64,000 nt of DNA from Gemella morbillorum (GTDB taxonomy: Bacteria; Bacillota; Bacilli; Staphylococcales; Gemellaceae). Position 1 is the stretch's first letter, and the number at the start of each line of letters is the position of its first letter. Below the pieces are notes generated by a model that worked only from the letters and a program-made list of their open reading frames with translations, did not search any database and was not told the DNA's origin. The stretch is taken from the NCBI RefSeq assembly GCF_900476045.1, contig NZ_LS483440.1, positions 1,116,001-1,180,000 on the forward strand, written 5' to 3'. Made by a program: the position numbers and the translations under genes. Positions 20,772 to 27,447 of the stretch are shown in pieces.

Positions 20772-22136
20772 ATGAAATATATAGTTGTTGGAACATCGCA
20801 CTTCGGATATGAAGCAGTTCAAACTATTTTAAAAAATGACAAAAATGCTGATATTCATTTATATGAGAGAGGCTCTAGCGCTTCTTTTATGGGATGAGGT
20901 AGTCAATCTTATTTAGATGGGACATCTAAAGCATTATCAGAATTACACTTTGCAACAGAAAAATCTTATGCTGAACAAGGAATTAATATTCACTGCAATA
21001 GCGATGTTATAGGATTGAATGCAAAAGAGAAATACATAATAGTAAAAACTTCTTCTGGAGAAGAAGAAAAACAAAACTATGATAAACTTCTTTTAAGCCC
21101 AGGTGGCGCAGCAATTAAACCACCATTTGAAGGAATAGAATTAGAGAATATTCATACATTCCGTGGCCCAGAAGATACTCAAGCAGTATACGATTGCATG
21201 CAAAAAAGTAAAAAAACAGTAGTTGTAGGTGGTGGCTATATCGGCCTTGAAGTTGCAGAATCTTATGCAAAACATGGCATCGATGTTACAATCGTTGATT
21301 TTGCTCCAAGGATTCTAAATACATATCTAGACCAAGAACTTACTGATATCCTAACTAATGAAGGTGCAAAACACAACCTTAAAGTTCATGGTGGGGAAAA
21401 AGTTCTTTCATTTAAAGGTGAAAACGGAAAAGTTACATCTGTTGTAACAGACAAAGGCGAATATGAAGCAGACACAGTAATTATGTCAGTTGGAGTTCGC
21501 CCTGACGCTTCATGGTTAAATGGTGAATTAGAATTAACTGAACGCGGCTTTGTTATAACTAATGAATACCTAGAAACATCTGCTAAAGATGTATATGCTG
21601 GTGGAGACTCTACACTTCTACCATACGCTCCTACTCGCGGTCAATTACCAATTGCACTTGCTACTTTAGCACGACGTCAAGGAGTAATTGCAGCATTAAA
21701 TGCTATGGGAATCAAAACTAAAATGCCTGCTGTTAATGGTACATCAGCATTATCATTCTTTGATTATAAATTTGTGAGTACTGGATTATCACAAAATGGT
21801 GTTAACCTTTATGATGGCAAGGTCTCTTCTAAATATGTAGAGGAGAAGATTTACCCAGACTTTATGAGAAAAGAAAATAATCTTGTTCACATGAAAATCT
21901 ACTTCGATGAAGATACACACAGAGTTTTAGGAGCTCAATTAATGTCTAAACATGACGTTTCTAGCGCTATCGCAGCATTATCTATAGCTATCGCATCAGA
22001 CTGGACTTTAGAACAATTAGCACTTGCTGACATATTCTTCCAACCAGAATTTGATCGCCCATGGCACTTCATTAATGTACTTGCAATGGCAGCCCTTGAT
22101 TATAAATTAGGTGGAGCAGATAAATTACTATTCTAA
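20772..22136 (+). CDS. nox: NADH oxidase/peroxidase family flavoprotein, predicted selenoprotein (TGA at codon 42)
   Basis: A 454-codon flavoprotein disulfide reductase that reduces O2 or H2O2 with NADH. It starts at ATG 20772 after AGGAGG with MKYIVVGTSHFGYEAV, including the family's active-site His10. Codon 42 (20895-20897) is TGA, precisely where enterococcal NADH oxidase and peroxidase have redox-active Cys42 (SFLSCGM there, SFMG-U-GSQ here). The frame is otherwise intact: NAD-binding KTVVVGGGYIGLEVAESYAKHG, FAD-binding DVYAGGDSTLLPY, and C-terminal DIFFQPEFDRPW. A stem-loop with a G-rich apex lies 22 nt after the TGA. The likely reading is selenocysteine. A nonsense mutation is the alternative; without readthrough only 41 residues would be made from this start. 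It is divergent from groESL and ends in its own terminator. Confidence 0.85.
20912..20930 (+). promoter_or_regulatory. candidate bacterial SECIS stem-loop in nox
   Basis: TTTAGAT (20912-20918) pairs perfectly with ATCTAAA (20924-20930) around a GGGAC loop; a further G-C pair can close inside. The loop begins 22 nt after the TGA and starts with G, within the spacing and loop rule known for bacterial SECIS elements. It lies inside the coding region. Confidence 0.6.
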
Positions 22137-25117: not shown

Positions 25118-25702
25118 ATGAAAAATAAACAATTAAAAAGATTAGGGAAAATTTTATTTTCTCTTACACTTATATTTTCTTCAATTGGGATAACAAATAC
25201 TCATGTTGTAGATGCTAAAAAAAGCTCTACTCCGCGCCCAAAACCAAGTAGCAAACCTACCAGCAGTAAGCCGAATGCAAAACCAAGTTCTCAAACATCT
25301 AGCAATAAACCTACTTCTAACTCAAGTTCTAAAAACTCTAAAGGAACTTACAACAAAAACTATAATAGTTATAATAATAAAGGTTACAAAAAGCAATATA
25401 CAGAGTATTTAAATAATAATTACAGAAATAGTGGTTTTTTCTCAGGAAGCAGTATCACAAATGCGCTTTTATGGTACACACTATTTAATTCAACAGCTTC
25501 TCGTAATCATATTCATGCTAGTGATAAACAAAAAGAATTGGTAGATAATGTTAAAGATAGTAAGGTACCTGTTTATATGCTTGAAATAAAAACTAAAGAT
25601 GGCGAAATAAAACACGTTACCGTTACTAAAGAACAGTATGATGAAGTGAAAGAAGGCGATAATATCTCTCTTAAAGATGGAAACTTAGAAATTAAAAATT
25701 AA
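25118..25702 (+). CDS. secreted Ser/Pro/Lys-rich hypothetical protein
   Basis: A 194-residue protein with a signal peptide (KRLGKILFSLTLIFSSIGITNTHVVDA, probable cleavage near residue 33). A low-complexity Ser/Lys/Pro/Asn stretch follows at about 35-75, then a Tyr/Asn/Lys-rich stretch, a short hydrophobic patch (NALLWYTLF), and a C-terminal domain of about 55 residues (VPVYMLEIKTKDGEIKHVTVTKEQYDEV). No sortase motif is visible. The composition suggests an extracellular, wall-associated protein. No named family is recognised. Confidence 0.7.
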   Translation: MKNKQLKRLGKILFSLTLIFSSIGITNTHVVDAKKSSTPRPKPSSKPTSSKPNAKPSSQTSSNKPTSNSSSKNSKGTYNKNYNSYNNKGYKKQYTEYLNNNYRNSGFFSGSSITNALLWYTLFNSTASRNHIHASDKQKELVDNVKDSKVPVYMLEIKTKDGEIKHVTVTKEQYDEVKEGDNISLKDGNLEIKN

Positions 25703-25728
25703 AGGAGCTAATTAATTAGCTCCTTTAA
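25699..25728. terminator. bidirectional terminator overlapping both stop regions
   Basis: A perfect 30-nt palindrome (TTAAAGGAGCTAATT and its complement) separates the secreted-protein gene from the MetE-like gene. The palindrome includes both stop codons. Confidence 0.85.
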
Positions 25729-26915
25729 TTTTTGTAGTATCTTTCTCTCAACATTTGCGCTGCTGCAACCATATTTTTCAATTTTTTTTGGATAATCGGG
25801 TACGGATTTAACGGTCGCTTAGCGAATGTTGCAAAACCACAATCAGGATTTAACCAAATTTTTTCAGGTGGAAGAAACTGTAAAACTTCCTCTACCCTTT
25901 CAACTATTTCTTCAACAGATTCAATTCGTTCACTTCGCGGGTTAATACAACCAAACCCTAGAATTATCTTGGTATCTAAGAAGTTATTAAAGAATAGTTT
26001 TTCTATTTCTCCTGCTCGCGGTGTTGAAAATTCTAGTGCTAACATATCTACATCTAGCGAATCAAAAAACTTACCTAATTTATCATATGCACCATGTAAT
26101 AAAACACTCTCATCTGTAGTCCAATTCCCTCGACATACATGCATTGCACTGGTGACACCTTCATACTTTCTAATTTCTGCAAGTACAGGCGTCAGCAATG
26201 ATTTTGCAAATTTTAACTCTTTGTCAACCTTGACTTTTTCTGATAAGGCCCCTCAGTAAAAAGAGTTATCTGCTTTTTCATTAGTAAATACTACCTCTGA
26301 TAAAATAGGTTCATCAATTTGAATTATTTTAGCTCCACTTTCTACCAATTCACGTATTTCATTACATAAAAGTTCTACAACATCTTCTCCCAATTCACGA
26401 CGCCCATCATAAACTTTTCCTGTTACTTCTTTTAACCACATTGAACGTGTTAATAAATATGGGCTTGGCAAGGTGCATTTTATATCACCATCTACTAATT
26501 CTTTTAAGATACCAAATTCAAAATCATTAAGTCTCTTTTTTGTATCAAGTTTTGAAAAACATATAGGGCTATTCATCGTATCGTCTGCAGCATCCATTTC
26601 TTCTAAACTCTTGCTAAAATTATCAGTATTATTAGTTAACGACATTACTTCTTCCATATTAAGTAATTTTATACCATCAACGACTTCAGCCACATAACTC
26701 ATATAATTATCTCTATTTAACTCACCGCTTACTATTACATCAATTCCACATTCTTTTTGTAATTCAACTACTCTGCGAGTTTCTTCCAATAATTTTTCTT
26801 TATACGCTTTTTCATACTTCGAACTATTATTACTACTTTCTTTTAATAATAGTAGTTCTTTAGTTCTTGGAAGACTACCTATTAAAGTTGTTGTAAAAGG
26901 TTTAAATTTCGTCAT
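25725..26915 (-). CDS. MetE-like (cobalamin-independent methionine synthase C-domain) protein, predicted selenoprotein (TGA at codon 221)
   Basis: A single-domain, 396-codon relative of the catalytic half of MetE, a zinc methyltransferase fold. It begins at ATG 26915 after AGGAGG with FTTTLIGSLPRTKEL. Zinc-ligand counterparts of MetE are seen: His259 and Cys261 (MHVCRGNW), Glu295 (DMLALEFSTPR) and Cys359 (IWLNPDCG). Codon 221 (complement of 26253-26255) is TGA in NSFY-U-GALSEK. The frame is open from 1 to 220 and from 222 to the TAA, with no other lesion, and the two parts complete one domain. A palindromic stem with a GG apex lies 24 nt after the TGA. The gene upstream is YedF-like, a selenium-linked family. 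Selenocysteine is the best reading; a nonsense mutation is the alternative. The methyl donor and acceptor are unknown. Confidence 0.8.
26223..26234 (-). promoter_or_regulatory. candidate bacterial SECIS stem-loop in MetE-like gene
   Basis: On the minus strand GTCAAGGTTGAC is a perfect palindrome: a 4-5 bp stem with the GG at its apex, 24-25 nt after the TGA. Spacing and G-rich apex match the nox element, although the stem is short and does not extend well. Confidence 0.45.
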
Positions 26916-26938: not shown

Positions 26939-27009
26939 AAGGCTAGCAATATATTGTTATCACCTTTCCGTTAATCTCTCGTGATTCATTCATTATATCA
27001 ACTAGCCTT
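26939..27009 (-). terminator. structured intercistronic element with terminator arms, yedF to MetE-like gene
   Basis: Outer arms AAGGCTAG/CTAGCCTT enclose about 55 nt and are followed on the minus strand by TTTTATTTTT, so it can end yedF transcription. Inside are a 6-bp AT stem and an ATCAC/GTGAT hairpin, and an AAAGGTGAT sequence like a ribosome site. This is more elaborate than a plain terminator and could be an attenuator for the MetE-like gene. Confidence 0.5.
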
Positions 27010-27018
27010 ATAACATTA

Positions 27019-27360
27019 TTATGGTTCAACTACTAGATCACTATTAGTCATTATATCTATAACTTCTGACATTGTTGTAGTTCCACCTACTTTAAGGTAA
27101 TCATCTAAATCATAATAATCTAGACATATTCCACATGAAAGAATTTTAACACCTCGTTTTTCTAATTCTAGTAAATCTTCTAGTGATTCAGATCCTTTAG
27201 TAGTTAATTTTACTCCCTCACCATAAAAAACAATATGTTGTGGTAAATGTTCTTTTTGAGAAAGAACATGAATGAACCCTTTCATTAAATTATCTATTAA
27301 TTCTTGTTCTCCACTTCCCATTCCTGTTGTTTTTATTACAACGTCATATTTTAAAGCCAT
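27019..27360 (-). CDS. yedF: YedF-type selenium-associated DsrE-like protein
   Basis: A 113-residue protein matching the C-terminal DsrE-like part of YedF proteins, with TTGMGSGEQELIDNLMKGFIH near the start, VFYGEGVKLTTKGSESLEDL in the middle and the cysteine motif ILSCGICLDYY. YedF is known from comparative genomics as associated with species that use selenium. Most members have an N-terminal TusA-like domain of about 75 residues that is absent here; the ATG follows AAAGGAGG closely, so this is the true start. It lies about 100 bp upstream of the MetE-like selenoprotein gene on the same strand. The biochemical role is unknown. Confidence 0.8.
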   Translation of the reverse strand: MALKYDVVIKTTGMGSGEQELIDNLMKGFIHVLSQKEHLPQHIVFYGEGVKLTTKGSESLEDLLELEKRGVKILSCGICLDYYDLDDYLKVGGTTTMSEVIDIMTNSDLVVEP

Positions 27361-27417: not shown

Positions 27418-27447
27418 ATTATAACATAAGCATTATAACCTTATCAA
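27418..27447 (-). promoter_or_regulatory. yedF promoter
   Basis: On the minus strand TTGATA (27442-27447) and a perfect TATAAT (27418-27423) are 18 nt apart, about 60 bp before yedF. Confidence 0.6.

Follow-up and report, generated by a model that had tools for sequence, protein, structure and literature searches.

The analyzed DNA, hereafter the window, is a stretch of 64,000 nucleotides from the Gemella morbillorum genome (1.76 Mb). A first-pass annotation of the window had described a YedF-type gene at 27019-27360 that lacks its TusA half and lies directly upstream of a TGA-containing gene on the same strand, and each of these points was reproduced (Table 1). The downstream gene encodes a MetE-like protein and is separated from yedF by 103 bp.

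Table 1. Features of the yedF-metE locus and of the second TGA-containing gene in the window.
Feature	Position	Strand	Remarks and basis
Short yedF	27360..27019	-	ATG start, 113 aa, stop included; ORF list
Promoter-like site TTGATA-18-TATAAT, upstream of yedF	27418..27447	-	Consensus match, 11/12
Strong inverted repeat between yedF and metE	26939..27009	-	Possible attenuator or partial terminator; folding
MetE-like gene, read through one TGA	26915..25725	-	396 aa, selenoprotein candidate; ORF list, models, alignment
TGA codon (U221)	26253..26255	-	Aligned with the invariant Cys of sister proteins
SECIS-like hairpin GTCA-AGGT-TGAC	26223..26234	-	21-32 nt past the T of TGA; position computed
Terminator-like hairpin 3' of metE	25693..25734	.	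Listed for + strand; end shared with the opposite gene
NADH oxidase-like gene	20772..22136	+	TGA at codon 42 (20895-20897) of a 454-codon frame; ORF list, models

The short YedF scored 126 bits against the NCBIfam model TIGR03527 (selenium_YedF), above the cut-off of 110, and the match was restricted to model positions 86-193 of 194, which correspond to the DsrE half. The Pfam DsrE model PF02635 gave 27.4 bits (cut-off 22.7), the NCBIfam and Pfam models returned no TusA match, and the ORF begins at the DsrE domain. The SCGIC motif is of the CGxC type, with both cysteines invariant in 24 aligned rows. The AlphaFold model (pLDDT 96) has the DsrE/TusD fold; its best PDB matches were 1l1s, 2pd2, 1jx7 (YchN), 2hy5 (DsrEFH), and 2d1p (TusBCD), with E values from 1.5e-5 to 4e-4, and these DsrE-fold proteins include MTH1491. 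No solved structure was related to YedF by sequence with E < 0.1, and no TusB/TusC-like or DsrF/DsrH-like neighbor was recognized among the ORFs inspected by eye. In the accessible part of PMC5322559, YedF is a SelD-linked protein with SirA/TusA-like and DsrE-like domains and a CGXC motif, and the two-domain signature marks the orthologues. Judged by sequence, the short protein is therefore a YedF under the NCBIfam cut-off and is not one under that two-domain signature. Promoter-like sites upstream of yedF were no more frequent than in shuffled sequence, and TTGATA-18-TATAAT is to be read as a consensus match only. The Rfam search of the window found no riboswitch at the yedF-metE locus; the hits, RNase P and a purine riboswitch, were in other parts of the window.

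The MetE-like protein scored 115 bits against the MetE model TIGR01371, below the cut-off of 930, and comprises the catalytic half only, without the folate-binding N-terminal half. The putative zinc ligands H259, C261, E295, and C359 and the putative substrate residues S14, E65, and D201 are invariant in 41 aligned rows. These roles were assigned by eye from comparison with PMC7857596, the accessible part of which gives the positions that hold zinc and homocysteine in methionine synthases. The protein thus carries the residue set of the core methionine synthases of the MesA-D type (H, C, E, and C for zinc; S, E, and D for homocysteine), and its predicted fold matches MetE and MesD. By sequence, residue 221 falls in an extra loop after the substrate Asp, which was modeled at low confidence (block pLDDT 52-75, residues 201-230). 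Gemella also has a separate full-length MetE-like ORF (761 aa frame).

The TGA context of the Sec form, SFYUGALS, aligned with SFMCAALS in the Cys form. A contig search with both forms resulted in 432 relatives, of which 80 were kept and analyzed; among these, position 221 is TGA in 14 and Cys in 66. The codons GTC AAG 3' of the TGA are identical in the 16 rows checked, although GTC accounts for only 4.3% of the window's Val codons and AAG for 15.7% of its Lys codons. Both codons belong to a short hairpin whose loop is AGGT, in which no covariation was found because the hairpin hardly varies (three of four pairs never do). The gene thus combines the sequence features of a bacterial selenoprotein, namely an in-frame TGA facing Cys in the homologues, Sec machinery in the genome, and a SECIS-like hairpin, and Sec is very probably incorporated at U221. 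The gap between yedF and metE contains an inverted repeat in 12 of the 15 gaps folded (the window and L049-L062), the other three gaps being 30 nt or shorter; this repeat may set the ratio of yedF to metE.

The Sec trait of the host was located in a sel region elsewhere in the genome, with tRNA-Sec (found with Rfam), selD, a 266-aa YedF, Se_S_carrier (DUF3343), selB, a cysteine-desulfurase-like gene, and selA; here selA, selB, and the desulfurase were named from sequence and not by model search. The selD match contains a TGA, and the 266-aa YedF (L004:8399-9199) has two TusA-like stretches followed by DsrE. The window has another Sec gene about 5 kb from yedF, which encodes the NADH oxidase-like protein; for this protein the earlier reading of a selenium sign was borne out by the TGA at codon 42. 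It is not new as a kind, since a FAD-dependent oxidoreductase selenoprotein family is listed in the 2026 review PMC13188914 and in the accessible part of the 2022 review PMC9312934. A TGA-containing NADH oxidase-like gene was also found in Alloiococcus otitis (L105, about 1300-2692), with the matching place SFMG-TGA-GSQSYL. The first-pass annotation had counted three independent selenium signs in the window; they are not independent because all depend on the single Sec trait of this genome (tRNA-Sec, selA, selB, and selD).

The association of yedF with the TGA-containing gene, for which a check of co-occurrence in other genomes had been proposed, recurred widely. Among the 80 relatives kept of 432, YedF lies directly upstream of 14/14 TGA-type genes and 0/66 Cys-type genes. 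After removal of duplicates (two of the 14 TGA-type loci belong to records already present among the Gemella genomes), the short YedF is immediately upstream of MetE in 17 of 18 distinct Sec-type loci, and the genera with the pair are Gemella, Parvimonas, Facklamia, Atopobacter, and Companilactobacillus. The nine Gemella genomes gave a matching pattern, with the short YedF and the adjacent TGA gene together in the same five and neither in the other four. At the 18th locus (L185, genome G027 of the Bacilli sample), the position of YedF is occupied by a two-stretch rhodanese gene (L185:4566-5621), and the YedF of that genome adjoins selD (L186) and not the Sec-type MetE. Because L185 has the rhodanese gene and no adjacent YedF, YedF is dispensable for the enzyme class; the search patterns for the pair would miss forms like L185, and therefore more exceptions may exist. 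Five Companilactobacillus species (L057-L060, L062) have both selB and a Sec-type MetE, and the papers listed by a literature search included none on Sec in Companilactobacillus. The pair is present in the food isolate Companilactobacillus versmoldensis. A tblastn search of viral contigs found no related loci.

A lone TGA in a single genome could be a mutation, and YedF could then be a chance neighbor of a pseudogene with a stop codon. We rejected this explanation, which we regard as extremely improbable, on the conservation of the TGA and of the pair across loci: 18 distinct loci share the position of the TGA, rare codons are conserved past it, YedF is paired in 17 of the 18, and selB was above the cut-off in all 15 genomes searched (those of 14 Sec-type loci and L105). 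The yedF-MetE(Sec) arrangement is almost certainly a real conserved pair as far as sequence can tell, and the near-constant placement of YedF before the Sec-MetE gene suggests joint selenium handling.

In the YedF tree, the MetE-linked YedFs form one clade (99/97), which also holds the YedF of Alloiococcus otitis; the sel-operon YedFs and the Bacillaceae-type group fall outside it. In the Alloiococcus otitis genome, the yedF gene is near selD, selB, and the TGA-containing NADH oxidase gene, 2.5 kb upstream of a cluster of the Cys type (acyl-CoA-dehydrogenase-like, PhnD-like, MetE, and OsmC). This tree omits 13 loci without a usable motif match (L140-L143, L163-L165, L167, L170, L172, L175, L176, and L178), including the second short YedF of two Facklamia (L140, L142). 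The MetE tree used for the results was the version without the distant row L027, in which Sec-MetE forms one clade (100/100) and, in the drawn tree, the rhodanese-linked form is the earliest branch inside it. Inclusion of L027 distorted the root and required two changes for the Sec group, with one change in 70% of the bootstrap trees; this version was discarded.

We consider that the short YedF is, with somewhat better than even chances, a dedicated partner of the Sec-containing MetE-like protein, the two being inherited as one unit and acting in selenium assimilation. It might instead be a general selenium chaperone that serves Sec synthesis overall and adjoins metE without acting on the enzyme, as would agree with the SelD linkage of YedF in the accessible part of PMC5322559. 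The locus L053 also speaks for a chaperone: its gene order is csd - Se_S_carrier - YedF - MetE(Sec), and its YedF is the only DsrE-type YedF match of that genome. However, a separate long YedF occurs in all nine Gemella genomes and is the sole form in the four without Sec-MetE, and the MetE-linked clade is distinct from the sel-operon YedFs, which makes the chaperone improbable.

The wider family was examined in a sample of 398 Bacilli genomes, 27 of which have a YedF match (E<=1e-18). The absence of the TusA half had been called unusual; this did not hold, as 25 of the 27 have a listed match without a full in-frame TusA half. The association of YedF with selenium was upheld, with selD in 25/27 YedF-bearing genomes versus 121/398 overall (P 3.5e-12, hypergeometric, kinship ignored). 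Homologues found mainly in genomes with no selenium genes and no linked TGA gene had been named as the outcome that would speak against the proposal. Selenium-free genomes were not the main home of YedF by the same selD count, whereas many of these YedFs do lack a linked TGA gene, and the outcome of this second half depends on the clade that is meant. The Bacillaceae-type group has a CKTC motif, falls below the 110-bit cut-off, forms a separate branch (100/99), and lies away from sel genes within the short stretches read. The TusA-less YedF-like proteins of Bacilli (L164-L184) score below the YedF cut-off, and many have CKTC; within the short stretches read they are not near sel genes, yet nearly all are in selD genomes.

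The Cys-type relatives were also linked to selenium. Of the genomes of the 66 Cys-type loci, 49 were examined and 48 have selD, the exception being G462 (L123). The L123 gene was considered as a pseudogene and this was rejected, since its two stops lie beyond the natural end; the gene is intact, and therefore the selD-less genome stands as an exception. In the Bacilli sample, selD is present in 13/13 MetE-clade genomes versus 121/398 overall (P 1.2e-7, hypergeometric, kinship ignored); these 13 comprise 11 Cys-type and two Sec-type genomes (the window's genome and G027) and are spread over seven families. Of 341 sampled genomes from the class to which Parvimonas belongs, four have the MetE clade, all with selD. 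An OsmC-domain ORF adjoins 62 of the 66 Cys-type loci, and a DsrE gene with a TusA-OsmC fusion occurs at 14; these neighbors were found by profile searches with one seed each, and the seeds themselves were checked with Pfam. Two kinds of Cys-type cluster were seen in selD genomes (L063-L128), ACAD-PhnD-MetE-OsmC and DsrE-(TusA-OsmC)-MetE. The selD linkage of the Cys-type relatives suggests that the MetE-like enzyme takes part in selenium metabolism proper, a role absent from the proposals of the first-pass annotation and raised here.

These neighborhoods can also be read in terms of sulfur, with YedF as a persulfide or disulfide-exchange partner of a MetE-like enzyme that has a sulfur substrate, and with selenium entering only through the catalytic Sec. 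DsrE, TusA, OsmC, and rhodanese are all sulfur-carrier families, and the enzyme retains a methionine-synthase-like site. Nevertheless, this explanation leaves unaccounted for the selD of 48/49 Cys-type genomes, the 13/13 in Bacilli (a count that includes two Sec-type genomes), and the gene order of L053, whose row of csd, Se_S_carrier, YedF, and MetE(Sec) fits selenium over sulfur; we judge it rather unlikely. A selenium-metabolism role for the pair is likely, and that YedF acts as a selenium/sulfur carrier for the MetE-like enzyme is moderately probable.

As a mechanism for the dedicated partner, the cysteines of the YedF CGIC motif would carry selenium (or sulfur) to or from Sec/Cys 221, in what we infer to be an active-site loop. 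The MetE-like enzyme would demethylate a methylated selenium compound, with homocysteine as the methyl acceptor, and the freed selenide would be passed to YedF, destined for SelD; this sequence of steps is put forward tentatively. The demethylation reading draws on the anatomy, on the linkage to selD, on the rarity of corrinoid cap domains, and on the corrinoid precedent in the accessible part of PMC10418091, and both its direction and its substrate are doubtful. The corrinoid cap domain PF02607 was not found in 15 of 16 Sec-type genomes, and a corrinoid route is therefore unlikely in them. More broadly, the MetE-like clade (Sec and Cys forms) with its carriers YedF/DsrE, TusA, OsmC, and rhodanese could, speculatively, make up a corrinoid-free system for regaining selenide from methylated selenium. 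The methyl group would then be transferred to homocysteine by a zinc methyltransferase, while selenium would be kept on Sec/Cys and the carrier before reaching SelD. This mechanism does not account for the acyl-CoA-dehydrogenase-like and PhnD-like proteins that accompany the Cys form.

The same anatomy would suit the reverse direction, in which the enzyme methylates selenide or another selenol for detoxification and YedF supplies the selenium; a corrinoid-dependent methyltransferase was assayed for methyl transfer to selenide, according to the accessible part of PMC10418091. For detoxification, however, selD would be unneeded. Methyl transfer from methionine to selenide without SAM is also energetically awkward, and we hold the reverse direction to be very unlikely.

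The papers listed by the literature searches, with subscription papers mostly outside their scope, included none on a Sec-containing MetE-like protein or on the yedF-MetE pair. The accessible main text of PMC13188914, the 2026 review of prokaryotic selenoproteins, mentions no MetE, methionine synthase, PF01717, or homocysteine, and Sec-MetE looks like a selenoprotein family missing from it. YedF has long been tied to selenium without a known function (PMC5322559, in its accessible part), and a DsrE-only YedF tied to one enzyme provides a defined partner for tests of YedF function. The linkage of the Cys relatives to selD suggests that commensal and soil bacteria have a selenium pathway of which no description was found in the literature searched. 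If selenide is indeed freed from methylselenium, this would explain how corrinoid-less bacteria could use methylated selenium made by hosts and other microbes.

Compared with the sel-operon YedFs (TIGR03527), the short YedF shares the DsrE domain, the CGxC-type motif, the occurrence in selenium-trait genomes, and a score above the curated cut-off, but it differs in the missing TusA half, its own clade, and its Sec-MetE partner, and the window's genome retains, as a separate gene, the long YedF and its two TusA-like repeats. With the TusD/DsrE/YchN proteins it shares the predicted fold, although the identity is 11-18%. The MetE-like protein resembles MetE and the core methionine synthases (MesD, PDB 3rpd; 1ypx) in fold, zinc ligands, and homocysteine residues, whereas it lacks the folate-binding N-terminal half, scores far under all curated cut-offs, and carries the extra loop with Sec/Cys 221. 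The closest functional parallel described in the accessible part of PMC10418091 concerns the type I mlp gene clusters and dimethylselenide use by M. voltae, with methyltransferases in methyl-selenium salvage. Both systems have methyltransferases tied to the Sec trait and a proposed release of selenide from methylselenium; those described in that paper are corrinoid-dependent, whereas 15 of the 16 Sec-type genomes have no corrinoid cap domain.
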